DNA of 64,000 nucleotides from Clostridiisalibacter paucivorans DSM 22131 (GCF_000620125.1 NZ_JHVL01000001.1:1-64000); one strand, 5' to 3'. Positions 33,869 to 60,523 are shown, counted from the first letter of the stretch. Notes: a model not told the origin generated them from the sequence alone. Made by a program: numbers and translations.

Positions 33869-36800
33869 TTATAACACCTCCTGTTGCTTTCTACCAGATA
33901 TCTTCCTTTTTACAAAATTAGTTATATCATCAAATATTGTATATACCACTGGTATAAATACCAATGTGAGTAATGTAGAAAGCAATAGTCCACTAATAAC
34001 CACTGTTGCCATAGGCGCTTGGGCCTCTGCCCCTTCTCCTATACCTAATGCCAATGGAATCAATCCCAATACTGTGGTAGATGTAGTCATCATTATAGGT
34101 CTAAGCCTTATAGGTCCTGCATTTACTATGGCCTCTGTCCTAGTTTCACCATTTCTTCTTCTAGTATTTATATAGTCAATAAGCACTATGGCATTATTTA
34201 CTACTATACCTGCAAGCATAATAACTCCAATAAATGCAGGTACACTTAACGACCTTCTAGTTATAAATAGTCCCAATGCTCCTCCTGCCAATGCAAGGGG
34301 CACTGAAAGCATTATTGTAAATGGATGTAGTAACGACTCAAACTGAGATGCCAATATCATATATACCAATATAACTGCAAGAATCAATGCCATGGATAAA
34401 TCTTGAAATGCTTCTACCATTTCCTTATTTTCTCCACCAAATTCATAGGTATATCCCTTAGGCATATTATATTTATCCATCTTAGCTGCTATATCTTCAG
34501 ATATACTCTTTAAATCTCTCCCCATTATTTGACTGCTTATGGTTACAACCCTTGACTGGGCATCCCTTTGTATGGAAATAGGTCCCTTTTCCACATCTAT
34601 ATATGCCACTTGACTAAGGGGTACATTTATGCCCGATGGGGATTGTATATATATCTGTTGAAGATTTTTAATGCTCTCTTTATATATTTCATCTCCCTTA
34701 ACCATCACATCTATTTCATCACCATTGTATTTATATCTGGTGGCCAATTTACCATCTATTGTGCCTTTTACAGCAGAAGCTACTTGAGCTGCTGTAATTC
34801 CGTATTGAGAAGCATTTTTTCTATTTATTTTTATCTGTACCTCTGGAATACCGTCTTCAAGGCTACTCTCTACTTCCCTAGTACCAGGTACAGATTCAAC
34901 TATTCCCTTGAATTCATTACCTATTTTCTTTAATTCCTCTATGTCATCACCTTTTACTGATATGCTAATTGGAGAACCAGAACCTCCTCCCATACCCATA
35001 CTTGAGGCAACAGATACTCCCTTTTCCGCTCCAGGGATATCTTTTATCATAGTCCTTACTTCGTCTGCTATTTCCTTTATTGAACGCTCCCTTTCAGTTA
35101 ATCCTACAGTCATTACATCTATTGAACCCTTATTAGTACCATTATTACCAAAGGACATATTATTTGACCCTATACTGGAAAATACCTTTTCTATCTCTGG
35201 TATATCCTCTAACATACCTTCTATCTCGGTAATTATCTCATTGGTCTCTTCAATCTCTGCACCATCGGGTAATTCAACACTTATAGTCAACTGACCCTCA
35301 TCTGTACTTGGAAAGAACTCTGCCCCAACACTGGTTATAGACACCATACTTATAATAAATACTAGCACACCAGCGAAAATTGTTGTCTTTCTATGGGATA
35401 AACTCTTTGTAAGTAATCCCTTATACATGGCCTCAATTTTGAAGAATATTCTATCAAATAGATCATACAAAAATGAGAACAATCTAAATCTAGAATGATG
35501 TGTCTTTCCTTGCTCTTTATCTACTTTGAGTAGTTTTGAAGAAAGCATAGGTATCAATGTCAATGACACACCCAATGAAGCCAATAAAGACATCGTTACT
35601 GTCAATGCCAGCTCTTTAAATATAGTAGAGGTTATTCCCTCAACAAATACTATAGGTAAAAACACTGCTATAGTAGTAAGGGTAGATGCTGTAACTGCCA
35701 TGCCTACTTCACTTGCACCCTTTATCGCTGCATCTTTTCTAGAATATCCCTCTTGTCTGAATCTATATATATTCTCTAACACAACTATGGCATTATCTAC
35801 AAGCATACCTGTACCCAATGCCAACCCTCCAAGGGTCATAAGATTCAGCGTTATATCATTAAAATATATCAATATAAATGTGGCTATTATAGAAATAGGA
35901 ATTGCAGTTCCTATTATAAATGTAGTCCTTATATTTCTTAAGAACAAATATAGGATAAATATAGCCAGTAATGCACCTATCAATGCATTCTTAACCACAT
36001 TATTTATAGAATCCTGGATGTAGTCTGATTGGTCAAACATAGTCCTTATATTTATGCCCTCATATTCTGAAGCCAATTTTTCTATCTCAGAGTTCACAGT
36101 ATTTGCCACAGAAACAGTATTAGTTCCCGATTGCTTCCTTATTGATATGGTTATACTATTTTCTCCATTTGTTCTAGATATACTGCTTATATCCTTAGGA
36201 GCCAATGTTACAGTTCCCAAATCTCTCAGATAAACTGTTCCTCCTTGGGGTAATGCAATGGGAAGTTCTTCTATCTCTTCTATATCTTCAAACTCTCCCA
36301 TAGTCCTAATGGTCAGTTCTTTATTTCCCTTCTTTACTGCACCACCAGGCTGATTTAAGTTTTCCCCACCGATTATTTGAGATAAATAATTTATGGATAA
36401 TCCATATCCTTGGAGTTTTTGTCTATTTACCTTTATCTCTACCTGATTTTCATATCCTCCCATTATATCAACAGAGGCAACCCCCTCAAGTCTCTCTATC
36501 TTAGACTTCATCTCATCTTCAGCAAGACTTTGAATATATGCCAAATCCTTATCTCCTGAAAGAGATACTACCATTATAGGCATAGCATTGGGGTCTATCT
36601 TCATTACCATAGGGGAAGATGCATCATCAGGTAAAAATCCCTTTATCATATCTATCTTCTCTCGCATTTCCAACGATGCAAAGTCCATATCGGTACCATA
36701 GTTAAATTCTGCTATAACTAATGAATTTCCCTCAGAAGAACTTGAACTTACATTTTTTATATCTCCTACAGTAGCTATAGACTCTTCAACAGGCTTAGTT

Positions 36801-36988
36801 ATGAGCTTTTCTATCTCTTGAGGTCCAACCCCTGCATATGATGTGGATACAATAGCTACAGGCACCTCTATCTTAGGTAGTAAGTCTATGGGCAATCTAC
36901 TCAAAGACACTACTCCTAAAAGTACGATTATAAAAATAACCATCAATATAGTAACAGGTCTCCTTACTGATAAACTAGAAATATTCAT
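33869..36988 (-). CDS. RND efflux transporter permease (HAE1/AcrB type), pump A
   Basis: 1039 residues, full RND length with 12 helices in two repeats and two large extracytoplasmic loops. MNISSLSVRRPVTILMVIFI opens helix 1. The proton-relay Asp of helix 4 is present in GMLVDNAIVVLENIYR near residue 400; helix 10 carries GIVVNNAIVLIDYIN. Its ATG overlaps the adaptor stop by one base (TAATG). In diderms such pumps export drugs, detergents, metals or lipids through a TolC channel. In S-layered Firmicutes related proteins (SwrC/YerP) export amphipathic peptides and fatty acids. The substrate here is unknown. Confidence 0.94.
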   Translation of the reverse strand: MNISSLSVRRPVTILMVIFIIVLLGVVSLSRLPIDLLPKIEVPVAIVSTSYAGVGPQEIEKLITKPVEESIATVGDIKNVSSSSSEGNSLVIAEFNYGTDMDFASLEMREKIDMIKGFLPDDASSPMVMKIDPNAMPIMVVSLSGDKDLAYIQSLAEDEMKSKIERLEGVASVDIMGGYENQVEIKVNRQKLQGYGLSINYLSQIIGGENLNQPGGAVKKGNKELTIRTMGEFEDIEEIEELPIALPQGGTVYLRDLGTVTLAPKDISSISRTNGENSITISIRKQSGTNTVSVANTVNSEIEKLASEYEGINIRTMFDQSDYIQDSINNVVKNALIGALLAIFILYLFLRNIRTTFIIGTAIPISIIATFILIYFNDITLNLMTLGGLALGTGMLVDNAIVVLENIYRFRQEGYSRKDAAIKGASEVGMAVTASTLTTIAVFLPIVFVEGITSTIFKELALTVTMSLLASLGVSLTLIPMLSSKLLKVDKEQGKTHHSRFRLFSFLYDLFDRIFFKIEAMYKGLLTKSLSHRKTTIFAGVLVFIISMVSITSVGAEFFPSTDEGQLTISVELPDGAEIEETNEIITEIEGMLEDIPEIEKVFSSIGSNNMSFGNNGTNKGSIDVMTVGLTERERSIKEIADEVRTMIKDIPGAEKGVSVASSMGMGGGSGSPISISVKGDDIEELKKIGNEFKGIVESVPGTREVESSLEDGIPEVQIKINRKNASQYGITAAQVASAVKGTIDGKLATRYKYNGDEIDVMVKGDEIYKESIKNLQQIYIQSPSGINVPLSQVAYIDVEKGPISIQRDAQSRVVTISSQIMGRDLKSISEDIAAKMDKYNMPKGYTYEFGGENKEMVEAFQDLSMALILAVILVYMILASQFESLLHPFTIMLSVPLALAGGALGLFITRRSLSVPAFIGVIMLAGIVVNNAIVLIDYINTRRRNGETRTEAIVNAGPIRLRPIMMTTSTTVLGLIPLALGIGEGAEAQAPMATVVISGLLLSTLLTLVFIPVVYTIFDDITNFVKRKISGRKQQEVL

Positions 36989-38121
36989 TATTTCTCACCT
37001 CTTACTACCTTTACTTTTGTACCATCTTCAACAAAGTTCTGTCCCTTTATTATTACTTTATCACTTTCACTTATACCGCTTTTAATCTCTATATATGTTC
37101 CTGTATCAAGACCTGTATCTACTTTTTTCACTTTTGCATTTTCATTTGATAACACATATACTATAGTTTCCCCTTCATTATCCAATACTGCCTCACTAGG
37201 TATTACATTTACGTTTTCTTTTATATCAGTATCTACCTTTACCTTTACAAACATACCTGGTTTTATGGTATGGTCTTTATTACCTATATATATCTTCACA
37301 GGATATAACTGCGTTCTAGGGTCTGTAGTGGGACTTATAGTATCTATTTTCCCTACAAATTCTTCCTGTGATGCAGACGGTATCTCCACATTTACACTCT
37401 TATCCTTATACAATTGATTAATAATATTTTCCGATATATCTACTTGTACATATACCTTATCCATATCTACAATAGTTACTGCAGCCTGTGCATTGGACGC
37501 AAACTCCCCTGCCTCTATATTTACTGCCGATACTACTCCACCTATTGGAGATTCCACCGAGGCATTTTCCATTGCCTCTACTGCTTGGTCATATCCTACT
37601 TGTGCAGTATTTAACTGCGATTTAGCTGCCTCTAACGAATTATCTGAAGCAGCTACCTTAGCCTGCTCAAATTGTGCCTCAGATATGGCACCCTCTTGAT
37701 ACAACTCCTTTGACCTTTCAAATGCCTTCTTTGCATTTTGTATTTTTTCTTCAGTTAATTTATAATTTGCCTTAGCTCCATCCAATGCTACCTTTGCATT
37801 GTCTACTGCATCTTGTATATCATCTTTTTCTAGAGTAAATAATACTTGATCTTTTGCTACCTTATCTCCTACCTTTATATTTGTTGATTCTACTTTTCCT
37901 GGTACTTTAGGCATAACCATTACTTCCTTATTGGCAAATACCTTACCACTAAAAACTATTTCATTGGAAATAGTCTTTTTTTCTATTTTACCTATTTCCA
38001 CAGGTACATAGTTTTCTTCTACTTTGGTCTTATCTACTGCCTCTTCTTTAGAGCCACATCCTACTACTAGACTGACTATTAAAATTATTCCCAGAAATAA
38101 AACCACGATTTTTTTTGCCAA
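36988..38121 (-). CDS. RND periplasmic-adaptor-type lipoprotein (MFP), pump A
   Basis: 377 residues. A lipoprotein signal ends at LVVGC, anchoring it to the outside of the membrane. Then follow a barrel-sandwich/lipoyl half (MPKVPGKVESTNIKVGDKVAKDQVLFTLE), a helical hairpin of about 90 residues (coiled coil, roughly 100-185), the second lipoyl half and two beta-barrel domains. The TTG start at 38121 has AAGGAGG 8 bases upstream. It is first in the operon adaptor-pump-TetR, behind a strong promoter with a TetR-type operator. Confidence 0.93.
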   Translation of the reverse strand: MAKKIVVLFLGIILIVSLVVGCGSKEEAVDKTKVEENYVPVEIGKIEKKTISNEIVFSGKVFANKEVMVMPKVPGKVESTNIKVGDKVAKDQVLFTLEKDDIQDAVDNAKVALDGAKANYKLTEEKIQNAKKAFERSKELYQEGAISEAQFEQAKVAASDNSLEAAKSQLNTAQVGYDQAVEAMENASVESPIGGVVSAVNIEAGEFASNAQAAVTIVDMDKVYVQVDISENIINQLYKDKSVNVEIPSASQEEFVGKIDTISPTTDPRTQLYPVKIYIGNKDHTIKPGMFVKVKVDTDIKENVNVIPSEAVLDNEGETIVYVLSNENAKVKKVDTGLDTGTYIEIKSGISESDKVIIKGQNFVEDGTKVKVVRGEK

Positions 38122-38259: not shown

Positions 38260-38371
38260 GTTAGTAGCCTGTAGTACAATGATGAAATCCATAGGGTTTC
38301 CACCATCAACTACGAACTACCAACTACTAACCACTAACTACCAACTACTAACTATCAACTAATACCTAATA
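38260..38371. repeat. Heptad hairpin element E7
   Basis: Short left arm GTTAGTAG, core CAATGATGAAATCC, ATA, GGGTTTCCACCATC, long right arm of CTAACTA/CCAACTA units. The TAG stop of the SLH gene (38366-38368) is in the arm. Confidence 0.8.
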
Positions 38372-40276
38372 CTCCTGTACTATAATAACGGTCTTAGCTG
38401 TAAATACGCCCTCTTCATAATTACCTATTACTAATATCTCGTCGCCTTCATCTAATCTCCTTAGAGATGTTTCATCTCCATCTTCATCTATATATGTGGT
38501 ACGACTATCTACATCTATTCTTATATTTTCCTTATCTCCAGATGCATTTATTGTAGATATTGTTATCACATCTGCCTTACTATTTATCCACTCTATTATA
38601 CCTTCATATCTATCGTTTTGGTTTCTAGATATGGCATCTATCTCTACTACTTCATTTCCTTCTATTTCTACCTCTACAGAGTAACCTAGTTTAAGGTCAT
38701 AAATAGTGGACGTCTTTCTATCTATCTTCAAGTCTACTCCCTTAGCTACATCATATGTTTTTTCGTCTCCATCATCATCTCTAATGGTCATTGTAGTACC
38801 TTTACTACTTATATTTATAGCCGTTACAGTTCCCTCGTCATCGTCTTCTACTACATCCGCCTCTATATCTGTCACTACATCATATTCTATATCTAACTTT
38901 ACTTTGTCTCCCTTTCTGAGGTCTGTTATCTCTGCATTCCTATTATTTCTCTCTATATCAACCCTTTTATCTACATCAAATTTATACTCATTATCATCTC
39001 TATCTACCACAACAATCTCTGGCTCAGGGTCAAATATAATCTTCTTTATAGTCCCTTTTAATCTCCAGTCACTACCTTTAACGTCTATTTCTACAATCTT
39101 ACTGTTTTTAACCTTGAACTCTCCCTTGTCTTCATCATCCAACTCATCTACATCAGCCTTTTCACCATTTAGTCTTATATCTGCATCTTCATCTACTTCA
39201 AAGGTCTTCTTCTCTGTATCATCGTCATCGTCATCTTCGTCCTCTTTATACTCTATTCTTATTTTATATGGGTCTCCCTTATATATCCTGTCTATCTCTC
39301 CTGTATACTCTTCCTCTATACTATTTGCTTCCAATAATACTACCTTTTTATCCCTTGTAACCCTAGCCTCTTTTAGCTCCAAACCTTCTGTAATATCTTC
39401 AGCATCTGACTTTCTGCCATCAATCTCTATCTTAGCATCATCATGAAGAATATATGTATCCTTATCTCCATCTTCATCCTTTATAGTTATATATAAATCC
39501 CCTGTAGATTTAAACATACTGTATATGGTACCTTCTATCTTCTTAGCATCATCTATTAAATCATCGTCTATTTCCTCAGGTACATCGGGTTTTATATTAT
39601 TCCTATCTATATAGTCATATGCTACCGAGAGCATTTTAGCCATTTCTGCCCTACTTATAGGTTTTTTAGGGTTAAACTTACCTTCTGAATCTCCCTTTTT
39701 ATTTATTACTCCCTTATCTACCATTACTTCCACATATGCCTGTACCTGTAAAGGCATTAGCTCTCTATCGATAAAGGGTAAATCTATTATTATTTTATTT
39801 TTGGCTTCCTGTTCTAAATCCATTGCCCTAGTAAGGTATACACATAATTCATATCTAAATGCATTTTGTGGAGAACCATTTTTATTGAACCTTTCTCTTA
39901 CCTCTTGTTCCGAAACAATTCCCGATTGTATAGCAGAAGCTACTGCATCTCTTGCCCAAGATGATACCCCTGCCCTACTCATAGTGGAGTCATATTTGTT
40001 TCTGGCATTCCTCACATCGGAACTACTTATATCTAACATATTATAGATCATAACCATTGCCTGTTCCTTAGTTACATAATTATTAGGTCTAAATGTAGCA
40101 TCTCCAGAGCCAGATATTATGCCCTTTCTATACATCTTTTCCACATATGGATTGGCCCAATGTCCATTGGGTACATCAGTAAAAACTTGAGCATATACTG
40201 AGGCACTACCTATTACCAGGAACGCTACAATAATCAATGAAAAAAACCTTGTACATTTACCCGTATCAAATTTCAT
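38366..40276 (-). CDS. Secreted SLH-domain protein with five acidic repeats
   Basis: 636 residues. A signal peptide (cleavage after ASVYA near residue 29) is followed by three SLH domains (about 30-75, 95-140, 165-225; FTDVPNGHWANPYVEKMYRKG is the first). Then come five repeats of about 78 residues, each of the form GTI..I, a beta pair with DxDGDxxTY, xVDxxxxIxIDGR, DLxxGDxV and a final VxxIEA. The repeats are rich in Asp and Glu, including a run of Asp near residue 350, and could bind calcium. SLH domains tie the protein to a pyruvylated wall polymer. It sits between the motor pair and pump A, so it may be a wall-side part of that machinery (inference). ATG follows AAAGGGGAGG. Confidence 0.9.
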   Translation of the reverse strand: MKFDTGKCTRFFSLIIVAFLVIGSASVYAQVFTDVPNGHWANPYVEKMYRKGIISGSGDATFRPNNYVTKEQAMVMIYNMLDISSSDVRNARNKYDSTMSRAGVSSWARDAVASAIQSGIVSEQEVRERFNKNGSPQNAFRYELCVYLTRAMDLEQEAKNKIIIDLPFIDRELMPLQVQAYVEVMVDKGVINKKGDSEGKFNPKKPISRAEMAKMLSVAYDYIDRNNIKPDVPEEIDDDLIDDAKKIEGTIYSMFKSTGDLYITIKDEDGDKDTYILHDDAKIEIDGRKSDAEDITEGLELKEARVTRDKKVVLLEANSIEEEYTGEIDRIYKGDPYKIRIEYKEDEDDDDDDTEKKTFEVDEDADIRLNGEKADVDELDDEDKGEFKVKNSKIVEIDVKGSDWRLKGTIKKIIFDPEPEIVVVDRDDNEYKFDVDKRVDIERNNRNAEITDLRKGDKVKLDIEYDVVTDIEADVVEDDDEGTVTAINISSKGTTMTIRDDDGDEKTYDVAKGVDLKIDRKTSTIYDLKLGYSVEVEIEGNEVVEIDAISRNQNDRYEGIIEWINSKADVITISTINASGDKENIRIDVDSRTTYIDEDGDETSLRRLDEGDEILVIGNYEEGVFTAKTVIIVQEY

Positions 40277-41398: not shown

Positions 41399-41440
41399 AC
41401 ACAACCCCCTTTTTTCAAATACAGTAATCCATATTTAACT

Positions 41441-42385
41441 CTACTTTTTATCAGTAATTTCTTTAATCTCATTAGTAAAATCTCCAAAGGTTACATTCAT
41501 CCTTTGAATGTTTGTCCTAAGTTCATGATTAAATTGAGAAAAATCTTTGGTATTCTCAGCAAATGTATTTAGGGATTCATTAAATAACTTAACTGCCTTC
41601 AACATACTAAGAGTAGTATTCTCCATCTCTCTAGTGGCTGCTGTAAGATTTTTTCCTGAATTGTCCATAACATTTTTAAAGTTATATTCTATTTTATCTC
41701 CCAAACTTCCCATAGTGTTCTTGATATCTTCTGCTATATATGTGTACTCATTTTCCTTTTTAAACTCAAGGGCAACCTTATTGTCTAAAAATTCTTCTAT
41801 ATCAACCATAACTGCCTCTTTAGTCTCGTCTATATTAAATAGAATATTTATAAATGTTACTATTATAGACGATGCGATACCAAATAGAGATGTCACAAAT
41901 GCCACAGACATACCTTTAACAGCCTCTATAAGTCCTCCTACTATAGAATCCATACTGCTCAATACCTCTACATTGGCACTATTGGACAGTAACTCTACTA
42001 ACTTAGCTATAGATATAGTTAAACCATAAAATGTACCTAATAGTCCCAATATAATCATCAACGATACAGCGTTTTTAAAAAATCTTTCTGCTAAAAATGA
42101 ATTTCTATGAAATTTATAGAAATTGCTTTCTATTATCGCCTGAGTATTTACTTCCTCAGCATTGCTCTTTGCCCTTTCCCTATAGTCCTTTACTATTGCA
42201 TTTAATACCTCATTTGCATATCTTCCTGAATCTAGATCATTTTTTCCCATTTGTAAATCTTTGTGTAGATCTTTGTATCTATTTCTAAGTATTATACTTA
42301 TAACTATAGATGATATCAATATACCCACTATAGTTATTATTATCACTATGGCTAATGGATTTAGCTTGTTTAATACATCAACCAA
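41441..42385 (-). CDS. MotA/TolQ/ExbB-type proton channel protein with long cytoplasmic tail, ZorA-like
   Basis: 314 residues. Helix 1 is at about 10-33 and two further helices (about 105-130 and 155-190) hold the channel signature SLMIILGLLGTFYGLTISI and GLIEAVKGMSVAFVTSLFGI. A helical tail of about 120 residues follows. Topology and tail resemble ZorA, the stator of Zorya defence systems, more than flagellar MotA, which has four helices and a compact cytoplasmic loop. Start is TTG at 42385 after GGAGGG. Its partner is the OmpA/MotB-like gene downstream. No ZorC, ZorD or ZorE gene is nearby. Confidence 0.85.
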   Translation of the reverse strand: MVDVLNKLNPLAIVIIITIVGILISSIVISIILRNRYKDLHKDLQMGKNDLDSGRYANEVLNAIVKDYRERAKSNAEEVNTQAIIESNFYKFHRNSFLAERFFKNAVSLMIILGLLGTFYGLTISIAKLVELLSNSANVEVLSSMDSIVGGLIEAVKGMSVAFVTSLFGIASSIIVTFINILFNIDETKEAVMVDIEEFLDNKVALEFKKENEYTYIAEDIKNTMGSLGDKIEYNFKNVMDNSGKNLTAATREMENTTLSMLKAVKLFNESLNTFAENTKDFSQFNHELRTNIQRMNVTFGDFTNEIKEITDKK

Positions 42386-42506: not shown

Positions 42507-42617
42507 AGTTCTTAGTTCTTAGTTCTTAGGTAATGGTTGAAATCCTTTGGATTTCTTCCTTGAACTATTAACTACTTACTACTAACCGCTAACTATCCCT
42601 TTACTACCAACTACCTA
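42506..42617. repeat. Heptad hairpin element E8
   Basis: Left arm TAGTTCTTAGTTCTTAG, core TTGAAATCCTTTGGATTTC, right arm of ACTACTAAC/CTAACTA units. It contains the TAG stop (42615-42617) of the TolC-like gene. Confidence 0.8.
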
Positions 42618-44075
42618 ATAAATCAAATCCCCTATATCATTGTAATATTTCATCTTTGCTAGATTGTAGCCGTATTTTATTTGTACTACCTTTTCTTCTA
42701 CCTCGGCTACTTTTTCCTCCGCTGCCAATACCTCTATTATAGTCCCTGCCGAAGACTCTAAATCAAGTTTTTTTAATAAACTGGTTTCTACGCCAAATCC
42801 CTCTTTATATTTATATTGTGCAATTTCAAGATTTTCTCGGGCTTGCTCCACCATGCCCTTGGCAGTTTTAAGCATCTCTCCAGTGCTTTTCAATGTCTCA
42901 TAGGACTGATATATGGAATTTTTCACATTCAATACAGTATCTTTATAATTTATCCTTGCCTTTTCCTTCAACAATCTAGCTTCCTTGTTTTGGAATGTAT
43001 TGCTGGGATACTTTTTCTCTACATTTTCAAAATTGGTTTCATATACTATCACTTCTCCAAAGCTCTTTCTTATTTCCAATCTTTCTTTCAACCCATTTTC
43101 AATACCATAGTCAATATCAGGTATCTCTCCCTCGTCTTCCATTACTTGAGTTAAAACCACCTCTTTATCCAATGGTATATTTATGTTTTTCTTAAACTCT
43201 GTCAACGCATTCTCATATTCTCCCAATGCCTTATTATACTCTATCTCTGTCCCCTGATAATATATTTGAGACATCAGCATATCGTCTTTGGCCTTCATTC
43301 CCTCTTCATAGCTGGCATTTACAAATTCATACTGTTTCTTTCCCCGCTCCATCGCCCTTTCTTTTACTTCCAACATCTGCTTAGCCTTTAATACATCATA
43401 ATAGCTCTTTTGTATAAGCATAGCTATCTGATTCTTATATATATCATAGGACGCCTTAGTTACTTCAAAGGCTACATTAGACATAGTAGTTAACACATTA
43501 GATGTTGCATTAACTGGTAATTGATCTAAACTATCAAAATTTAAATTCCCCGATATAGTAGTTCCTGCTGTTTGAAGTCCCTCTATAATAGATCTTTTTC
43601 CAGCCTCTAAACTGTCTTCTATATCTTTAGATGTCATATTTCCAGCCTCTAATATGCCCTTCATTTGACCTGCCGTTATTCCTGAGGGTAAATCTCTTCC
43701 TATAAGCTTTTCTACTTCCGATGCAGTTTTATCATCTAATTGATACTCATCGGGTAAAGACTCCAATTGTTCCACCTTATTTAATATCTTTCTTCCATCG
43801 CTTATCTTTTCATCTCCATCTTCCAACTTTTTACTGGCAGATTTTGCCCTTCTTTTCTTTACTTCACTTAAATCTATTTCATTTCTTACCTTTTCCAATG
43901 AAATACTATTTTCCAACCCTATTTTCACTGCTTCTTGTATATCTAATTCTAATACCTTTTCTTCTTCATCTTTAATCTCTTCACTGCTTTCACTATCATT
44001 GTCTACAGCTATGGATACTGTAGAAGTAAATATCATCATAGATGCCACAACTATTGCTAAAACCCTGTTTTTCAT
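42615..44075 (-). CDS. TolC-family protein lacking the outer-membrane barrel (TolC1, pump B)
   Basis: 486 residues. Signal peptide MKNRVLAIVVASMMIFTSTV then an acidic linker. TolC-type helices follow: AVKIGLENSISLEKVRNEID, KASYDIYKNQIAMLIQKSYY, ERGKKQYEFVNASYEEGM, and the second repeat INYKDTVLNVKNSIYQSYET with AQYKYKEGFGVETSLLKK. Where TolC proteins carry amphipathic beta strands there is only a short KKYPSNTFQNKEA segment and, in the first repeat, a helical insert of about 120 residues. So it should be an all-helical external tube or scaffold, not a pore in an outer membrane (inference). It follows marR by 17 bases under the MarR-box promoter. Confidence 0.85.
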   Translation of the reverse strand: MKNRVLAIVVASMMIFTSTVSIAVDNDSESSEEIKDEEEKVLELDIQEAVKIGLENSISLEKVRNEIDLSEVKKRRAKSASKKLEDGDEKISDGRKILNKVEQLESLPDEYQLDDKTASEVEKLIGRDLPSGITAGQMKGILEAGNMTSKDIEDSLEAGKRSIIEGLQTAGTTISGNLNFDSLDQLPVNATSNVLTTMSNVAFEVTKASYDIYKNQIAMLIQKSYYDVLKAKQMLEVKERAMERGKKQYEFVNASYEEGMKAKDDMLMSQIYYQGTEIEYNKALGEYENALTEFKKNINIPLDKEVVLTQVMEDEGEIPDIDYGIENGLKERLEIRKSFGEVIVYETNFENVEKKYPSNTFQNKEARLLKEKARINYKDTVLNVKNSIYQSYETLKSTGEMLKTAKGMVEQARENLEIAQYKYKEGFGVETSLLKKLDLESSAGTIIEVLAAEEKVAEVEEKVVQIKYGYNLAKMKYYNDIGDLIY

Positions 44076-44092
44076 ATATACAACCTCCCAAA

Positions 44093-44575
44093 TTATGCAA
44101 AGTTTTCTTTTATAAGCCCCACTTGCATCCTCTTTAACAAGTCAATCAATTGTGACTTTTGGGCATCATCCAATACACCCATAACAGACTTTGTCCACTG
44201 CTTATATTCTTCTATTATTTCACCAATAAATGCCCTTCCCTCTACTGTTATATTCGCCATTATTTTTCTTCTGTCCTCAGTGTCCCTCTTTCTCTTTACA
44301 TATCCCTGTTTCTCCAGTCTATCTATCAATCCTGTTATATTCGCCCTGGTCACCAACATACTTTCTCCTATTTCTGAAAGCATAAGCCCTTCTTCTGGTC
44401 CCGTATATAGTATCACCAAAAGATTAAATTTAGTACTGGATATATCATATCTGTTGAAAAAACTGTTATGAATTTCTTCTAATATATCTGCTGTCTTTTT
44501 TAATTCTATTATGGCTTTATTTGCTACTTCTCCTACCCACTCATAGGATTCAAATAATTTCTTGGCCTTACTCAT
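44093..44575 (-). CDS. MarR-family transcriptional regulator of pump B
   Basis: 160 residues. The winged helix is in residues about 45-120: LVILYTGPEEGLMLSEIGES with MLVTRANITGLIDRLEKQGYV and the wing RDTEDRRKIMANIT. It begins at ATG 44575 after GAGGTGACTGTGA. A palindrome-like motif TGTAAATAGTTTATAT overlaps the -35 box of its own promoter and that of the adaptor-pump B operon, making autoregulation and pump control likely. Ligand unknown. Confidence 0.92.
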   Translation of the reverse strand: MSKAKKLFESYEWVGEVANKAIIELKKTADILEEIHNSFFNRYDISSTKFNLLVILYTGPEEGLMLSEIGESMLVTRANITGLIDRLEKQGYVKRKRDTEDRRKIMANITVEGRAFIGEIIEEYKQWTKSVMGVLDDAQKSQLIDLLKRMQVGLIKENFA

Positions 44576-44619
44576 TCACAGTCACCTCTAGTCTTAATAA
44601 TTAATTTACACCCTTAATT

Positions 44620-44658
44620 ATTTTAAACTTAATATATAAATGTGTAAATAGTTTATAT
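44620..44658 (-). promoter_or_regulatory. marR-tolC1 promoter with candidate MarR box
   Basis: Minus-strand TTTACA, 17-base spacer, TAAAAT (44620-44648). The 16-base box 44643-44658 reads TGTAAATAGTTTATAT on the plus strand and recurs identically at 49004-49019, in the same position relative to that promoter. Confidence 0.75.
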
Positions 44659-44704
44659 ATTTATATTATATTGGTAAAATAAGGGACATATCTAGTCCCC
44701 TATT

Positions 44705-47700
44705 TTAGCCAGTTATCTTTTGTAAAATCTCTTTTCTCTTTTCCTTGACTTGTTTAAATACTAAAAACGCTGCTGGAATAACTATCATGGTCAACATAGA
44801 CGATACAAACAATCCAAATATCAATGAATATGCCAATGGCGCCCATAGACTACCTCCAGCCAATCCCATGGGTAACAATCCTATGGTAGTTGTCACCATA
44901 CCTATCATTATAGGTCTTAGTCTAGTAGCACTGGCTTCTTTTATGGATTCTATTAAGTCTCGACCTGACTTAGTCAATGTATTTATATAGTCTAATAGCA
45001 CTATACCATTGTTAACTACTATACCCATCAAGCTCACTGCACCCATAAGCGCCATAAATCCTATGGGATATCCTGTTATCTTCAATCCCAATATTACCCC
45101 TATAAAGGATAGTGGTATAGTTCCCATAATAATAAGGGGCTGACGAAGATCAAAGAATTGGAACATAAGTATTAGATATATTAACGCCGCTGATAAGAAA
45201 AATGGTCCTATCAATGACTCAAATGCCTCTGTTCTATCTTCATTCTCTCCACCAAATTCCAATTTATATCCAATGGGCACCTCAAAGTCTTTTAGTTTTT
45301 CTTCTACTATTTTTAATACATCCGCTGCTGTATATCCCTTTTTAGGATATAGTCCTGTGGTAATAGTCCTATCCTTATCTCTACGTAGAATTTTGTTTAT
45401 AGAAAACTCTGTCTCTATATCGGCAACCTGATTCAATGGCACATTTTGTCCTGTAATACTAGATGTCACATATATCTGTTCCAAAAGCTCCCTATTATTT
45501 TTGTCTTCTTCTGGAACCTTTAATATAACAGGTATATCATCATCACTATGAGCAGGCTTTATCTTGGTTATCTCTATACCATTTACCACCATCCTTATGG
45601 TTTTAGATATATCATAATTGGTGAGTCCAACCATATTTGCCTTGTCTTTATTTACATTTACCTTTATCTTAGGTGTCTCAAATCCAAAGTCATCTTGGAC
45701 ATTTTTTCCCTCTTCTATTTCATATAGCTTTTCCTTTATATCTCTAGATATTTTTCTCAATGTGTCTATATCTTCACCACTCACCCGTACCTGTACAGGC
45801 AATCCCACAGGCACAGCATTTTCTAGCTGTTTAACCTCTATCCTTGCACCTGGTATGGTTCCATCTAATTTCCTCTGTATATTGTCTATCTCATATTTAC
45901 TACCATTTACTATAAACTGTGCCTTATTAGATGAAATTTGATTTGGAAAGAAAGATGGATAAAATTTAGGAATCCCATCTCCTACTTTAGATAGATATGT
46001 ATCTACCTTGTCATTTTCATCTAATACATTCTCTATCTTTTCTACCACATCTCTAGTCTTTTCTACAGTACTTCCTTCCATTGTAGTCACATCTATTATA
46101 TATTGATCCCGCTCAACAAAGGGAAATAACTGCATACCCAATGTGGGAATAAGTAACCCTGTCAATGTCAATAATATTATGGCACTTACCAATGTAACCT
46201 TTGGCTTCTTCAAGGCCGCATCTAATATCTTTTTATATTTGCCCATAAAATATTCACTTAATCCACTAAACTTGGATTTCTTACTATCATCCTTCACCTT
46301 TAAAAAGCTATGTCCCATAACAGGCACCACAGTCAATGAACAAAGATAAGAACTTAAAAGTGCCACAGTTACCAATACGGGCAATGTTTTTACAAATTTT
46401 CCTGCAACACCCTTCATCATCAATAACGGTAAAAAAGATGCAACTGTAGTCAATGTTGAAGTAAGTATAGGTATCCTTACTTCTTTTATACCTTCAACTA
46501 TGGACATCTCCCTATTTAATTTTCCCCGTGTAAGATATACATCCATATTGTCATTGGCTACTATGGCATTTGCCACCATAAGACCGAGACATACAATCAA
46601 TGAAGATATGGATACTTGGTGCAATATAACTCCAGTCATCCTCATAAATAAAAATGTTGCCATTACTGATATAGGTATGGAAGATGCCACTACCAATGCA
46701 CTTCTCCATCCCATAGTTATAAGTACTACCACTAATACCAACACTATAGCCGATAAGAGGTTCTTCTCAAATACCTTTATTGCATCATTTACATATACTG
46801 CTTGGTCAGTTATCATCCTTATATGCATACCTTCAGGTAAACTCTTCTCATATTCATCTAAAAATGTATTTAGTCTCTCTCCGACCTTAACTACATTCTG
46901 ACCTTCGGAAAATTTCACAGCAATAAGTAATGCCTTTTCTCCATTGCTATTTACATATACATCCCGTTTTTTTTCCGTTTCTACCACATCTGCCACATCT
47001 TTAAGATATACCACATTTCCTTGTTCAGACATGCCTACTATGGTATTTTTGACTTCATCCAATGATTCATATTCCCCTGTAGTACTTACCGATAACTTAG
47101 TATCGCCTAATTCCATATTTCCGCCAGGAATATTTACATTGGTAGCCATAAGCATCTTACCTATTTGGTCTAAGGAAATATTGTATTGTCTCATCTTCAA
47201 TATATTCATATTTACATGGATTTCCTTATCCTCATAGCCATCTATCTTTACTTCTGCTACTCCCGACTCCCTTTCAAATCTGTCCTTTAGCTCATCTGAT
47301 ATGACCTTCAATTCATCAAATTGGAATTTATCTCCACTTACAGTTAGAAGCATTCCATAGGTTTCTACCAATTCAGTATCTATTTCTGGTTCCCAAACCT
47401 GCTCAGGAAAATCTGCCTTTGCATTGTCTACTTTATCTTTTAATTTGTTCCAAGTTTCATTTATTTCATCATCAGTTATATCTTCAAGCCTAACCACAAG
47501 GACACCTACACTGTCAAGGGAATGACTCTCCAATCTTTTGATATGATTAAGCTCTGACACTTTTTTCTCTAGGGGCTTTACTATGAATTTTTCCACATCT
47601 TCAGGGGTGGCTCCAGGATATATGACCTTAATTATGGCTCCAGGGGATACTACATTTGGATTTTCCTGTCTTTCCATATTTGCATATAGATATCCTCCCA

Positions 47701-47764
47701 TCACAAATATAAATATGGCCAACATCGCCACTATACTTCTATGCCTTATACACCATTTAGTCAT
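44705..47764 (-). CDS. RND-family permease, pump B, without the helix-4 proton-relay Asp
   Basis: 1019 residues, full RND architecture. Helix 4, which in AcrB-type pumps carries Asp-Asp or Asp-Asn, reads GLMVANAIVANDNMDVY: both relay positions are Ala-Asn (codons GCA AAT). An Asp occurs seven residues later. Helix 10 reads GIVVNNGIVLLDYIN. PGATPEDVEKFIVKPLEKKV and VERDQYIIDVTTMEGST are porter-domain landmarks. It may use an alternative acidic residue or be energised or coupled differently. The ATG at 47764 overlaps the adaptor stop by eight bases. It ends 130 bases before marR. Confidence 0.92.
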   Translation of the reverse strand: MTKWCIRHRSIVAMLAIFIFVMGGYLYANMERQENPNVVSPGAIIKVIYPGATPEDVEKFIVKPLEKKVSELNHIKRLESHSLDSVGVLVVRLEDITDDEINETWNKLKDKVDNAKADFPEQVWEPEIDTELVETYGMLLTVSGDKFQFDELKVISDELKDRFERESGVAEVKIDGYEDKEIHVNMNILKMRQYNISLDQIGKMLMATNVNIPGGNMELGDTKLSVSTTGEYESLDEVKNTIVGMSEQGNVVYLKDVADVVETEKKRDVYVNSNGEKALLIAVKFSEGQNVVKVGERLNTFLDEYEKSLPEGMHIRMITDQAVYVNDAIKVFEKNLLSAIVLVLVVVLITMGWRSALVVASSIPISVMATFLFMRMTGVILHQVSISSLIVCLGLMVANAIVANDNMDVYLTRGKLNREMSIVEGIKEVRIPILTSTLTTVASFLPLLMMKGVAGKFVKTLPVLVTVALLSSYLCSLTVVPVMGHSFLKVKDDSKKSKFSGLSEYFMGKYKKILDAALKKPKVTLVSAIILLTLTGLLIPTLGMQLFPFVERDQYIIDVTTMEGSTVEKTRDVVEKIENVLDENDKVDTYLSKVGDGIPKFYPSFFPNQISSNKAQFIVNGSKYEIDNIQRKLDGTIPGARIEVKQLENAVPVGLPVQVRVSGEDIDTLRKISRDIKEKLYEIEEGKNVQDDFGFETPKIKVNVNKDKANMVGLTNYDISKTIRMVVNGIEITKIKPAHSDDDIPVILKVPEEDKNNRELLEQIYVTSSITGQNVPLNQVADIETEFSINKILRRDKDRTITTGLYPKKGYTAADVLKIVEEKLKDFEVPIGYKLEFGGENEDRTEAFESLIGPFFLSAALIYLILMFQFFDLRQPLIIMGTIPLSFIGVILGLKITGYPIGFMALMGAVSLMGIVVNNGIVLLDYINTLTKSGRDLIESIKEASATRLRPIMIGMVTTTIGLLPMGLAGGSLWAPLAYSLIFGLFVSSMLTMIVIPAAFLVFKQVKEKRKEILQKITG

Positions 47765-48941
47765 TACTTGCAACCTCCAATTTGACTTTGTCCCCTGATT
47801 TTAATTTGTATTGTCCTTCTACTACTACCTTTTCTCCTTCATTTAGCCCCTGCAATATCTTAATCTTATCCTTTATAACCTCTCCTGTCTGTACTGGTCT
47901 TTCTTCTACCACACTTTCTTCATTTACAACGAATACCACTGCACCTTCAGTGTATTTTATTACACTATCTACAGGCAATAATATTCCTTTCATATCTTCT
48001 TTGTTTTTAGGCTGTATTTTTACCTTTGCAATCATTCCTGGTTTTATTATAAGGTCTTTATTATCTATATTTATTTTTACACCAAATGTTCTAGTCTGTT
48101 GATCCGCTGTTGTGTCGATATTTTTAACTGTTCCCTTAGTTTCTAAATCTAATCCATATATCAATACATCCACTTCATCACCTATGGTTATATTTTTTAC
48201 CATATTATCAGGGACTCCTATCTCTACTTCTAATTCATCTAATTTCCCCAATACAACTGCAGGATATCCAGGTGCGATGGTCTCTCCCGACTCAAATATG
48301 GTCTTTATTACTGTTCCATTTATAGGGCTTTTAAGTACTGTATCTGTCAATTTAGATGCTGCCAAATCCCATGCTGCCTTTGCCTGCTTGAGTTGGGTCT
48401 CTGATATACCCTCTGCATCCAATGCCTCTTGATGTTTATTTTCCGCTACTACCAATGCCGTCTCTATTTCTTCCAATGTCTTCTTTGCCACTGCACCCTT
48501 TTCATACAATCTTTTTACCCTTTCATGTTGGGTTTTGACAAAGTTAAGATTGGCTTCAGCTTGATTTATAGCTGATTTAACAGCACTTGCAGACTTCTGT
48601 TCCAATGCCTCATATTGTGCCTTTGTGGCAGTTACATTAAGCTCATAATCATGGGATTGCAGACTCATAAGGGATTGACCCTCTACAACTCTATCCCCTT
48701 CTTCCACATATATAAAATCTACTACACCAGGGACCTTAAATGCTGCCTTTATAAGTTTCCCCGGCTTTACATTACCACTAATCTCCATGTCTTGAGCATA
48801 GTTGTCAACTTTTACCTCCACTACCTTAGCAGGTTTTAAAGGTTCGCTCTCTGAAGATACTTCCTTAGAAGCACATCCAGTCAAGTTCCAAACTATGGCT
48901 ATTACCATAACTAATGCAATGAATTTTTTTAAACCTCTCAT
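47757..48941 (-). CDS. RND periplasmic-adaptor-type lipoprotein (MFP), pump B
   Basis: 394 residues. Lipoprotein signal with LTGC near residue 23 after a basic start MRGLKKF. Lipoyl halves (AAFKVPGVVDFIYVEEGDRVVEGQSLMSLQ, spanning about 62-91) flank a coiled-coil hairpin (about 95-185), followed by beta-barrel domains and GEKVVVEGQYKLKSGDKVKL. The first ATG at 48959 has no ribosome site; the ATG at 48941 follows GAGAGGTG and gives a clean signal peptide. First gene of the adaptor-pump B operon. Confidence 0.92.
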   Translation of the reverse strand: MRGLKKFIALVMVIAIVWNLTGCASKEVSSESEPLKPAKVVEVKVDNYAQDMEISGNVKPGKLIKAAFKVPGVVDFIYVEEGDRVVEGQSLMSLQSHDYELNVTATKAQYEALEQKSASAVKSAINQAEANLNFVKTQHERVKRLYEKGAVAKKTLEEIETALVVAENKHQEALDAEGISETQLKQAKAAWDLAASKLTDTVLKSPINGTVIKTIFESGETIAPGYPAVVLGKLDELEVEIGVPDNMVKNITIGDEVDVLIYGLDLETKGTVKNIDTTADQQTRTFGVKINIDNKDLIIKPGMIAKVKIQPKNKEDMKGILLPVDSVIKYTEGAVVFVVNEESVVEERPVQTGEVIKDKIKILQGLNEGEKVVVEGQYKLKSGDKVKLEVASND

Positions 48942-48980
48942 ATAAAATACACCTCTCATATTGTTTGTTTGTATATATAT

Positions 48981-49019
48981 ATTATACTAGTATATTTTAT
49001 ATATGTAAATAGTTTATAT
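48981..49019 (-). promoter_or_regulatory. Promoter of the pump B operon with candidate MarR box
   Basis: Minus-strand TTTACA, 17-base spacer, TATAAT (48981-49009). The box TGTAAATAGTTTATAT at 49004-49019 overlaps the -35 element exactly as at the marR promoter. Confidence 0.78.
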
Positions 49020-49037
49020 GTTAATTATTATTAATTA

Positions 49038-49202
49038 TTGGTTGGTAGTTCTTAGTTCTTAGTTCTTAGGTCTTAGTAAAAAAGTTAGTAGTTAGTAGGT
49101 ATTAGTTAGTAGTTTAATGATGAAATCCACAGGATTTCTACCATCAACTACTAACCACTAACCACTAACTACTAACTTATATCTACTAACTAATACCTAA
49201 CC
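49038..49202. repeat. Heptad hairpin element E9 (compound)
   Basis: Left arm in two blocks (TTGGTAGTTCTTAGTTCTTA; GTTAGTAGTTAGTAG), core TTAATGATGAAATCC, ACA, GGATTTCTACCATC, long right arm of CTAACCA/CTAACTA units. The TAG stop of the TolC2 gene (49197-49199) lies in the arm. Confidence 0.82.
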
Positions 49203-50345
49203 TATAACATTCTTTCCTAATCCCTTACTATATCTATAATCTAATAGGGCTAAGTTATAGGCGTGAATCTTGTTGTTTAGTTCTTTTTTGGCATTCATAT
49301 AGTCTATTCTAGCTTTGGTCACATCATTTAGAGTGCCTTCTCCTACCTTGTATCTCAATTGAGAGATATCATAAGATTTTTTTGCCTTATCCGATGCCTT
49401 TTGATAGGTCTTTATCTGTTTTTCTGCTGTCTCTAATGAGAGATATGCACTCCTCACTCCCATTTCCACACCTATTTTAACTGTATCTAAACTCTTTGCT
49501 GCCTCTTGTATTGCCAGTTCCTTTTCCTTATATCTGAATGTATTTGGAGTATATTTTACCTTTGTTGCCTCAAGGGATAATTTAGATAGTTCATAATTCT
49601 CCTTTACTACCTTTAGCCCTGCATTCTTTTCAAGGGCCTCTTTTACCCCTTCCTCCACTTTTATATAATCATGGGGTTCATAGGTCAACTGGCTAGTAAG
49701 TTCTATATCTGTAGTAAGGTCTAGTCCCAAGGCATTGTTAAAACTCATCCTTTGAAGCTCATAATATTTCCTTGCTTCTTCCAATCCAGACTCTGCTTGT
49801 GCCAAAGACACTTCAGATGCCAATAACTGCTGCTCAGATATAGTCCCTACATCAAACATAACCTTACTTTGATTATATATAGTTCTTGCCAATTCCAATC
49901 CCTCTTTAGCTATATCATATTGATTCTTTATTTGTTGCAAATCATAGTATGCCTTTTCCACATCATATTTGATCTGATTAGTCTTTATATCCTTATTCCA
50001 CTTAGCTATATCTACACCCAATTGTGCCGATCTCTTAGTAACACCCAAATCTTTTAATTTTTCAGTAATTGCATCAACTACACCTGAACCATATTTATCT
50101 ATTGCATCATTAGTTTTACCTATCCCATATCTTGCTTCATCATATCCTAAATCTGCCTTCTCTATATTTATATCCTGTATCTTCATATCCCTATTATGCT
50201 CCAATGCATAATCTATTGCCTCTTCCAAACTAAATTTCATAATCTCTGAGCTCTCGATATCCTTTTTATCTGTATCCGCATATGTAGTCCCAACCATGGT
50301 AAAACCCATAATTGCAATTATAGCTATAGCCAATATTCTCTTCAT
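49197..50345 (-). CDS. TolC-family protein lacking the outer-membrane barrel (TolC2)
   Basis: 382 residues, about 90 shorter than E. coli TolC. Signal peptide MKRILAIAIIAIMGFTMVGT with cleavage near ATYADT-like residues 23-25. The helical repeats are clear: YDLQQIKNQYDIAKEGLELA with FDVGTISEQQLLASEVSLAQ and, in repeat two, VRSAYLSLETAEKQIKTYQK with LRYKVGEGTLNDVTKARIDY. The place of the beta strands is taken by VKYTPNTFRYKEKE, the same pattern (Y-x-x-NTF-x-x-KE) as in TolC1. It is a separate transcript. A TetR-type operator shared with pump A lies between its promoter and start. Confidence 0.86.
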   Translation of the reverse strand: MKRILAIAIIAIMGFTMVGTTYADTDKKDIESSEIMKFSLEEAIDYALEHNRDMKIQDINIEKADLGYDEARYGIGKTNDAIDKYGSGVVDAITEKLKDLGVTKRSAQLGVDIAKWNKDIKTNQIKYDVEKAYYDLQQIKNQYDIAKEGLELARTIYNQSKVMFDVGTISEQQLLASEVSLAQAESGLEEARKYYELQRMSFNNALGLDLTTDIELTSQLTYEPHDYIKVEEGVKEALEKNAGLKVVKENYELSKLSLEATKVKYTPNTFRYKEKELAIQEAAKSLDTVKIGVEMGVRSAYLSLETAEKQIKTYQKASDKAKKSYDISQLRYKVGEGTLNDVTKARIDYMNAKKELNNKIHAYNLALLDYRYSKGLGKNVIG

Positions 50346-57514: not shown

Positions 57515-60500
57515 TTATTTAACTTCAAATTCTAATGCTTTATCGTTAGATACTTCTTCTCCATCTACTTCTTTATATAAAGCATCTTTTTCAATTGTTA
57601 TTATGTCGTCTTTTTGAATTTTTTCTTCAAATCTAACAGTAAAGCTTCTAGCTGCTGAATCTCCCTTAGTAGGTCCTTCTATTGCTTTTATTCCAAAAGG
57701 CTCTATACTAAATGTATTTGTTACATCATCTGCGAAGTAAACTCTTTCACTTACTGTAAATGTAACATAGTCAGCACGACTTTGTACTTCAAAGTCTATA
57801 TCAACATCCTCAAATGAACCACTTCCGCCTGTTGTTCCTTCTTTTACATCTTCTGCTTCATCATCAACAAGTCTTTCTATAACTCTAACATTTACACCAT
57901 CTTCTACTACGAAGTATACTGCATCATCTTTTCTAAAGTTAGAGTTTGACTTCTTAGTATCTTCTTCGTATGCTACAGTCTTACTGTTCATTCTATAGTC
58001 TTTTCCATCTACAGTAATAATCTGTCCGTCTTTATCAGTAATAACTCCAGTTTTATAATCAAAGTCACCTTTATCTTTGTTATAAAGCTTCAACGTTCCA
58101 TCGCTCTTGATTTCAGCAATGTATGGTCTTTCTTTTTCTAACTTACCATCAGATACTTTATCTACTTCCGCTTCTTCTACCTTGCCAGTTTCGTATGATA
58201 CATATTCAACATAGTCATCTCCACCTTTGCTCCACTTATCTACAACGTAGATAGCTTCTTCATCTGTAGAAGATGAAGCTCCTTTTCCAACGAATACAAG
58301 AGCGTCTATGTCAATATTATTACTTCGCTTTGTAAATACAAAGAATTCAAGTTCAGAATCATAATTGTCTTCAGCCATATCATCCCAATTAGCTACTCCG
58401 AAATCATCTGAATCAAAATCCAATGTATCCATATCTAATCCTTCTCCATCGATAATAGCTGCTTTATTATCTATTGAGAAGCTTTCATTTTCAGCACCAT
58501 CTTTTGATGTAGCTAAAATACTATCTTCGCCAAAATCTCTATCCTCTCTCATTTTCCAAGAATTATCTTTGTCTGCTACATAAAACTCATCTTCTGCTAT
58601 TTCACCATTATTGTTAAGTTTAAATTTAACAACCTCACCTGCTTTAATAGCGGATATTCTCTTTGTAGCATCTTTATCATTACCAAACTCATCTAATTCT
58701 AAAGGTTCTTCTAAGTTCTTATATTCTTCTACTTCATATAAGATTTCATCTCCATCTGACTCTTCAGTCAATGTAAAGATTCTAATCTTATCATTATCTG
58801 AATATGTTCTAGTAACTATACCATATTTAAATCCAGATGTAGCGTCTGCCTCTGTAGTTAAGAAAGCAATTCTTCCTGCTACGTCTAAATATGCTACTAC
58901 ATCTTCATCATCAGCATCTTCCATATCATCTTCCCAGTTACTATCTACATTCCATTGTTTAATATCTTCAAGACCGTCAATGCTATAATAAGATTGATAT
59001 TCTCTACCATCATTATCAAATCTTGTAGTTTTAATTTCTTTGCTTCCTATCTTCACTCTATCATCTTTTACTCTTCCTAATTCGCCTTCTACTACATTAT
59101 CATCAACTACCATTACTACCGCATAATCATCGCCATCATAGTCTTGCTTTTGTACATAGATTATATTTCCTTCATCTATGTCATCTACATCAACTTTATT
59201 TCCTAATGTATCAAAAGCAAATACACCATCATAATTTCCATCTTCCCCTAAGTCCAAGTCAAAGTTTTCATCTGTTTCGTTAATACCTTCTAGCAAGCCT
59301 TTATTATTATCAAGAACTAGCATCCATGGATATGCCTCGTCAGAACCCATTACTTCAGCATAAACTATCTTATTATTCTTAACAACAAATTTACCAACTT
59401 TTCCTACTACATCATCTATATCAGTATCAATTCCATCTCTTTTATCTACAGTTATTTCATCATACTGATTATCACTTGAATCGAATACATATACCACTGC
59501 ATCTTCATCAAATTTGTAGTCATCATCATGTCTAACTAAGCCTAATTCTGTTATTTCTCCATCTTTTCCAGTAACACCGTCTACATAATCAAAATATGCT
59601 TTATCATCTTTTTCTTCTTCAAGATAAATAACATTATCATTATCATCCATGTATAGTGTTACTTCTTCACCTATAAATCTTCTTGGATTTACAAAATCCT
59701 CAAAATCAAAGTCTTTAACTTCATTTTCTCTATAAGATGTGCTTACAGAATCCTCGTATGCGTCAACATCTTCTAAGAATTTAACAGTCATTTCATCTTC
59801 TTCTAATCCATCATCTACTAATTTATCTGCTACTATTCTAACATTTTCATATTTGCTTATGTCTAATTTTTCTTTTAATAATGTCGTATCTTCCTCTTTG
59901 TATTCAGCATTTTCACCAAAAGTATCTTGCTTAATTATTTCAGCATCTAATGTATTGTCTATCATTAATGCTACAGACCCTCTATCAGCAGATCCTGTTG
60001 TTGAAAATTTAACGCCTTTAGTTATACCTTTCTCTGCTGCTTTAGCAAAGAATTTATCTGGCCAGTTTCCTGCTATAAGATCGTCTTTGTATCCAAGGGC
60101 TCTTACTAACATAGTAACTGCTTCTGCATAAGTTACATTTTTAGTAGGTAAGAATTTACCACTTGGAGTTCCTTTAATTATGTTTTGTCCAGCAGCTACA
60201 TTAATGTATCCTGTTGACCATTTTCCTACCGGTACATCTGTAAAACTACTTGAACCTGCAGCTGCATTTGCAGCATTGTCCAATCCCAATGCCTTTACCA
60301 TTAATGTTGCAAATTGTTCTCTAGTTACATCTAATTCTGGATGGTATTCTCCATCCCCCATACCACTTACTATACTGAAAGCAGATAGTCTTTCTACTGC
60401 AGCTTTAATATCTTTATCTTCGATATTCTTCACAAGATCAGTATTTGGAGCTGCTGCGAAAGCCATTGAAAAGCTTCCTAGTACCATAGCAAGGGCAAGT

Positions 60501-60523
60501 ACTATTGATAATACTCTCTTCAT
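57515..60523 (-). CDS. Main S-layer protein with N-terminal SLH domains
   Basis: 1002 residues. Signal peptide MKRVLSIVLALAMVLGSFSM ending near AFA (residue 23). Three SLH domains span about 30-195 (VTREQFATLMVKALGL; FTDVPVGKWSTGYINVAAGQ; VTYAEAVTMLVRALGY). The remaining 800 residues are very acidic, with many Asp-Asp-Asn/Asp-Gly turns, suggesting calcium-bound beta domains. SLH domains bind a pyruvylated secondary wall polymer. Strong promoter, structured 138-base leader, perfect AAAGGAGG site and strong terminator point to very high expression, as expected for the array-forming protein. Confidence 0.92.
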   Translation of the reverse strand: MKRVLSIVLALAMVLGSFSMAFAAAPNTDLVKNIEDKDIKAAVERLSAFSIVSGMGDGEYHPELDVTREQFATLMVKALGLDNAANAAAGSSSFTDVPVGKWSTGYINVAAGQNIIKGTPSGKFLPTKNVTYAEAVTMLVRALGYKDDLIAGNWPDKFFAKAAEKGITKGVKFSTTGSADRGSVALMIDNTLDAEIIKQDTFGENAEYKEEDTTLLKEKLDISKYENVRIVADKLVDDGLEEDEMTVKFLEDVDAYEDSVSTSYRENEVKDFDFEDFVNPRRFIGEEVTLYMDDNDNVIYLEEEKDDKAYFDYVDGVTGKDGEITELGLVRHDDDYKFDEDAVVYVFDSSDNQYDEITVDKRDGIDTDIDDVVGKVGKFVVKNNKIVYAEVMGSDEAYPWMLVLDNNKGLLEGINETDENFDLDLGEDGNYDGVFAFDTLGNKVDVDDIDEGNIIYVQKQDYDGDDYAVVMVVDDNVVEGELGRVKDDRVKIGSKEIKTTRFDNDGREYQSYYSIDGLEDIKQWNVDSNWEDDMEDADDEDVVAYLDVAGRIAFLTTEADATSGFKYGIVTRTYSDNDKIRIFTLTEESDGDEILYEVEEYKNLEEPLELDEFGNDKDATKRISAIKAGEVVKFKLNNNGEIAEDEFYVADKDNSWKMREDRDFGEDSILATSKDGAENESFSIDNKAAIIDGEGLDMDTLDFDSDDFGVANWDDMAEDNYDSELEFFVFTKRSNNIDIDALVFVGKGASSSTDEEAIYVVDKWSKGGDDYVEYVSYETGKVEEAEVDKVSDGKLEKERPYIAEIKSDGTLKLYNKDKGDFDYKTGVITDKDGQIITVDGKDYRMNSKTVAYEEDTKKSNSNFRKDDAVYFVVEDGVNVRVIERLVDDEAEDVKEGTTGGSGSFEDVDIDFEVQSRADYVTFTVSERVYFADDVTNTFSIEPFGIKAIEGPTKGDSAARSFTVRFEEKIQKDDIITIEKDALYKEVDGEEVSNDKALEFEVK

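Follow-up and report, generated by a model that had tools for sequence, protein, structure and literature searches.

The closest described relatives of the system considered here are the TolC-like proteins of monoderm Firmicutes reported by Stubenrauch et al. in 2022 (PMC8809574), a paper on which we draw for part of its text. In that part the proteins are exported and encoded in operons with other pump components; the C. difficile protein has an omission in its beta-barrel domain and was found in secretomes, shed along with S-layer proteins; a model placing an exit protein of TolC type within the S-layer was already proposed, and one operon with two TolC-like genes, in L. gingivalis, was noted. 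Here we analyse 64,000 nucleotides of Clostridiisalibacter paucivorans DSM 22131 (NZ_JHVL01000001.1:1-64000; this whole stretch is referred to as the window), in which two TolC homologues, TolC1 and TolC2, are encoded together with an adaptor of the membrane fusion protein (MFP) type and a resistance-nodulation-division (RND) permease. With a probability of roughly 0.6, we propose that TolC1 and TolC2 form a helical exit tube that docks on the adaptor and passes through the wall zone, serving the RND pump of a monoderm. A first-pass annotation of the window had called such a barrel-less form poorly described, which holds only in part: the same finding and hypothesis appear in the consulted text of PMC8809574, of which the earlier idea is an independent rediscovery. 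No other direct prior work on TolC in monoderms was found in a literature search that did not extend to subscription papers. New here are the strand-free template-free model, the class-wide spacing, the paired inheritance, the S-layer gene adjacency and the exceptions to the S-layer association.

TolC homologues without barrel strands

The genes and elements concerned are:

49197..50345, minus strand: TolC2, barrel-less outer membrane efflux protein (OEP)/TolC homologue of 382 aa, the "first" pair member (PF02321, 1.4e-37; AlphaFold2 model)
49518..49553 (about), minus strand: repeat-2 linker of TolC2, YTPNTFRYKEKE, standing where two barrel strands would be (model turn, tip spacing)
47757..48959, minus strand: lipoprotein adaptor (MFP) of the RND type, hairpin tip RVKRLYEKGAVA (TIGR01730, 208 bits; tip motif)
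44705..47773, minus strand: RND permease of the HAE/ACR family (PF00873, 601 bits; NCBIfam RND_permease_2)
44093..44575, minus strand: MarR-type regulator, 17 bp from TolC1 (winged-helix MarR features, read from sequence only)
42615..44075, minus strand: TolC1, barrel-less OEP/TolC homologue of 486 aa (PF02321, 2e-18; AlphaFold2 model)
42978..43010 (about), minus strand: repeat-2 linker of TolC1, YPSNTFQNKEA, standing where two barrel strands would be (model turn, tip spacing)

TolC1 and TolC2 are true two-repeat OEP/TolC homologues without a barrel. Their genes lie on the minus strand where the first-pass annotation had put them and, as it had stated, both carry two repeats: PF02321 (OEP) matched two stretches in each (67 and 130 bits, cut-off 22). 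A search of the organism's own assembly (3.25 Mb, 99.2% complete) returned TolC1 and TolC2 and no other OEP gene. A third match, at 37600-37848, was rejected as a TolC gene, being a weak match to the hairpin of an adaptor (MFP, 36988-38121). The N-termini of both proteins show a hydrophobic stretch and an A-x-A-like site and, judged by eye, resemble Sec signal peptides.

The two proteins were modelled as monomers by template-free AlphaFold2, using a three-sequence alignment of TolC1, TolC2 and a 43%-identical homologue in locus L006, the only relative returned by a single-protein scan of genome contigs; the start codon was omitted from both models, so that model numbering is protein numbering minus one. 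The TolC2 model (predicted local distance difference test, pLDDT, 79; predicted template modelling score, pTM, 0.72) contains helices at 51-84, 103-164, 170-205, 241-263, 269-332 and 338-374. In its second repeat five residues (264-268, YTPNT) join helices H6 and H7 at the site of the second pair of strands in TolC, and in its first repeat an ill-predicted stretch of about 18 residues (pLDDT below 50) holds a short helix and no strands. The TolC1 model (pLDDT 74) has the same layout, with a turn at 355-359 (YPSNT) between helices 332-354 and 360-424 (H6/H7) and, at the first strand-pair position, a long insert of several helices at the outer end. The best structural matches of both models were TolC, OprM and CusC over some 320-330 residues (Z 22-26 for TolC2). 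Compared with 1ek9, TolC2 aligned over 330 residues (Z 25.5, root-mean-square deviation 5.0) and TolC1 over 319 (Z 23.6, root-mean-square deviation 4.1), and about 100 of the 428 residues of TolC were left unmatched. The helices of 62-64 residues, at 1.5 A per residue, extend for about 95 A, and the alpha-barrel is therefore of full length. Both models thus have the fold of a TolC alpha-barrel protomer, and neither protein is an outer membrane factor in the strict sense, the strands of a transmembrane barrel being absent by models and spacing alike.

The missing strands had been noted by the first-pass annotation, and this was borne out by models that are strand-free at both barrel positions and by the spacing of the two adaptor-docking tips, as measured from aligned conserved half-repeats. 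This spacing is 168 residues in TolC2 and 167 in TolC1, as compared to 218 in E. coli TolC and 208 in both CusC and MdtP (whose tips score low and were checked by eye), so that the window proteins are 40-50 residues short of the barrel-bearing E. coli ones. The same measurement was extended to 293 genomes of the same class, which by gene content is probably Clostridia-like, and 91 of these gave OEP matches; 82 OEP proteins, the better-scoring ones, were read from fetched loci. Spacing was 151-187 residues in 79 of them (modes 168 and 174), and in the remaining three, at 205-230 residues, charged, proline-rich hydrophilic inserts take the place of strands; barrel strands were found in none of the 82. 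BamA was likewise absent from all 11 OEP-bearing class genomes tested, the three long-spacing ones included. Barrel-less forms are thus the rule in this class. The long-spacing proteins (L084, L106, L107) were considered as surviving barrel forms and rejected, given their hydrophilic inserts and the absence of BamA from the genomes that encode them. The two linkers read as the first-pass annotation gave them; the Y-x-x-NTF motif is present in both window proteins, yet as a family signature it was rejected, for it occurs in only 12 of the 82 and marks a subgroup. One OEP gene (L007, G088:C79; profile match 6 to 182) lies on a 3.3-kb contig which is possibly diderm contamination.

The first-pass annotation had seen no outer-membrane genes in the window, and a profile search of the organism's own genome upheld this: BamA (PF01103), LptD (PF04453), TamB (PF04357) and LpxC (PF03331) gave no match there, while the controls in known diderms did give matches. 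S-layer homology (SLH) domains were matched 44 times. These results agree with a single-membrane cell whose surface layer would be SLH-anchored.

In the window, as in relatives, MFP and RND genes share the operon. The tip of the first adaptor, RVKRLYEKGAVA, is an RLS-type motif in which Ser is changed to Ala; apart from this change, both it and the tip of a second adaptor in the window, RSKELYQEGAIS, fit the pattern RxxxLxxxxxxS, which binds the TolC tip (PMC3391258). In MacA a Ser-to-Ala change left some activity (PMC3391258). Tips of the RLS type were found in 13 of 30 class MFPs, as compared to about one expected by shuffling.

Paired paralogues

Two OEP genes occur together in 25 of 57 loci, a figure that includes the window pair, whose members have three other genes between them. 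Identity within a pair (A versus B) is about 19%, as compared to a mean of about 25% among all As or all Bs; the nearest neighbour holds the same pair position in 47 of 48 cases, and the tree likewise separates first from second members. The A and B distance matrices agree closely (Mantel r 0.96, p 0.0001). Together, the low within-pair identity, the position-sorted neighbours and the matching matrices indicate, at the level of sequence, that A and B diverged early in every pair lineage and have been co-inherited since. Pairs are accompanied by RND and MFP genes in the window, L036, L046 and L050, by transporters of ABC type, as judged by sequence, in L072 to L075, and by no visible transporter in others (e.g., L041-L045, L047-L049, L051, L052, L103, L104).

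One possible explanation for this pairing is that the two paralogues build a single obligate hetero-oligomeric tube with alternating A and B subunits, rather than two homotrimers; without barrel closure, a helical barrel could be made of two gene products. This scenario overlaps with the exit tube proposed above, and the frequency of pairs, their divergence, the sorting of neighbours and the matrix correlation all speak for it, as does the retention of the pair with MFP and RND in both the window and its same-order relative L036. Co-inheritance by itself, however, yields a high Mantel r; the window genes are set apart by the MFP, RND and MarR genes; and the TolC1 clade contains OEPs encoded singly beside MFP genes, so that members of this clade can work alone. 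We therefore hold an obligate heteromer to be possible, at odds clearly below even. Three close relatives of TolC1 (L091, L109, L111) are single; their neighbours are an adaptor gene and two genes for ABC-2-like permeases, not RND.

S-layer genes and the layout of the locus

The first-pass annotation had further suggested that such a protein could reach through the wall to the S-layer. A genome-level association with SLH domains stands: these were found in 80 of 91 OEP-bearing genomes and in 99 of 202 without OEP (odds ratio 7.6, not corrected for phylogeny). Five OEP-bearing genomes without SLH (G106, G180, G275, G290, G260) have many modules of CWB2, the anchor of C. difficile-type S-layers. 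Adjacency adds to this in some cases, with an SLH gene lying within 300 bp of an OEP gene at five loci, as compared to about 0.3 expected. The association is not obligatory: universal dependence on an S-layer was rejected, because OEP pairs with MFP and RND occur in at least two genomes that all but lack these modules, G034, which has neither SLH nor CWB2, and G128, with no SLH and one CWB2 match. It follows that not every such tube can lead to an S-layer of the SLH or CWB2 type.

OEP genes or pairs adjoin SLH genes, with no pump gene adjacent, in L103 (4190-10014 region), L104, L045, L047, L098, L083 and L006. In G275:C13 (L049) and G180:C25 (L048), OEP pairs lie within clusters of CWB2 cell-wall protein genes.

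Read along the minus strand, the window genes follow one another as TolC2, adaptor, RND permease, MarR-like regulator and TolC1, and the adaptor and permease genes overlap by 17 bp. Between TolC2 and the adaptor lie 237 bp that contain a promoter-like site and an inverted repeat with 47-nt arms, and TolC2 may therefore have a transcript of its own, even though the promoter scan overall was not above shuffled background. The repeat (49082-49178) is imperfect, and its arms consist of TTAGTAG-like units. Further features of the window are:

33869..38121, minus strand: second MFP-RND operon, lacking an OEP gene of its own; MFP tip RSKELYQEGAIS, canonical (profile matches, tip motif)
38366..40276, minus strand: protein with SLH domains for S-layer anchoring, at 2.3 kb from TolC1 (PF00395, 1.2e-24)
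57515..60523, minus strand: large SLH-domain protein, S-layer candidate (PF00395, 1.4e-17)

The genome has three full-length RND permeases and only the two OEP genes, from which it follows that the exit proteins may be common to several pumps, the second MFP-RND operon being a possible additional user. Between TolC1 and the nearer SLH protein (40475-42385, minus strand) lie a MotA/TolQ-like and an OmpA-like gene which are similar to the genes for ZorA and ZorB in Zorya, an anti-phage system (ZorA1 46 bits, ZorB1 123 bits), although at 314 aa the ZorA-like protein is short.

A putative exit tube and its relation to known systems

In the proposed mechanism, TolC1 and TolC2 would be exported and, assembled as trimers, would serve as the outlet of a tripartite RND pump. 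At their inner ends, the conserved tips would dock onto the hairpin tip of the co-encoded adaptor, and the alpha-helical barrel of about 95 A would reach through the cell-wall zone toward the S-layer, with which it may make contact, providing a route for the efflux of drugs or solutes. As the cell has no outer membrane that could take up a beta-barrel, a short turn or a hydrophilic helical cap would have come to stand in its place. In favour of this proposal are the TolC fold, the strand-free models and the fixed short spacing, the missing outer-membrane markers, the operon partners, the adaptor tip motif, the SLH association and adjacency, and the shedding of the C. difficile protein along with S-layer proteins (PMC8809574).

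Several observations weigh against this proposal. The SLH cross-table is uncorrected for phylogeny; SLH genes within 5 kb of OEP loci number 10, as compared to about 4 expected, an enrichment rejected as modest, so that only adjacency within 300 bp stands out; G034 and G128 have OEP pairs but no SLH and at most one CWB2 match; the window adaptor has Ala where the motif has Ser; and the models are of monomers, from alignments of three sequences, with the outer ends among their least confident parts.

An alternative raised by the first-pass annotation is that the proteins act as a scaffold or cap docked on the adaptor, which would stabilise the adaptor ring and the pump, or plug them, without forming a long channel. 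For this speak the retained inner docking tips, an outer end devoid of any membrane part or known part for S-layer binding, and the helical insert that TolC1 has there. Whole helices of about 62-64 residues are, however, kept in near-constant register class-wide, which is more than a cap needs, and we judge this alternative unlikely. Far less probable is a cryptic diderm whose TolC homologues enter an outer membrane in some other way: TolC homologues are normally outer-membrane proteins and SLH proteins occur in diderm Firmicutes too, but the proteins are strand-free and the four outer-membrane markers, with positive controls, are absent from a genome that is 99.2% complete. That truncated or misassembled genes only look barrel-less is hardly credible, since the frames are open and stop-free, 79 of the 82 proteins, which come from many genomes, share this spacing, and no support for an artefact was found.

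A broader generalisation of the exit tube is that monoderm Clostridia-type bacteria build wall- and S-layer-spanning tubes from two dedicated, anciently diverged, co-inherited barrel-less TolC paralogues (A and B), serving RND, ABC and perhaps S-layer-linked export; in this full form we put it forward only tentatively, with doubt outweighing belief. If the exit tube itself is real, the RND pumps of bacteria with a single membrane would be true trans-envelope machines, moving substrates out beyond the thick wall and the S-layer; this would bear on drug tolerance in Clostridia of the gut and the environment, and TolC would be a helical conduit that can do without its outer-membrane barrel. The tube model can be tested directly, given the precise and uniform spacing and the pairing of the paralogues.

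Adaptors of the HlyD/RND_mfp type have a related hairpin architecture, as illustrated by the MFP at 36988-38121, which matches OEP weakly, but they have lipoyl and barrel domains with one hairpin, whereas in TolC1 and TolC2 there are two complete OEP repeats and the lipoyl domain is lacking. With E. coli TolC (1ek9), CusC and OprM the two proteins share the two-repeat helix-hairpin fold, helices of about 95 A, equatorial elements and docking tips; the four beta-strands per protomer that make up the 12-strand membrane barrel of those proteins are absent. The nearest likeness is to the proteins in the consulted part of PMC8809574. These also have two OEP repeats, an omission of the barrel, an operon with MFP and transporter (here the adaptor and RND genes between TolC2 and TolC1), and a host with S-layer genes (here 44 SLH matches) and no beta-barrel assembly machinery (BAM). 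In that part of the account, neither A/B pairing as a general pattern nor a position next to S-layer genes was encountered. The Phyre2 homology model described there leaves a reduced hydrophilic barrel domain, whereas the template-free models presented here are strand-free, and the spacing was here measured on 82 proteins.

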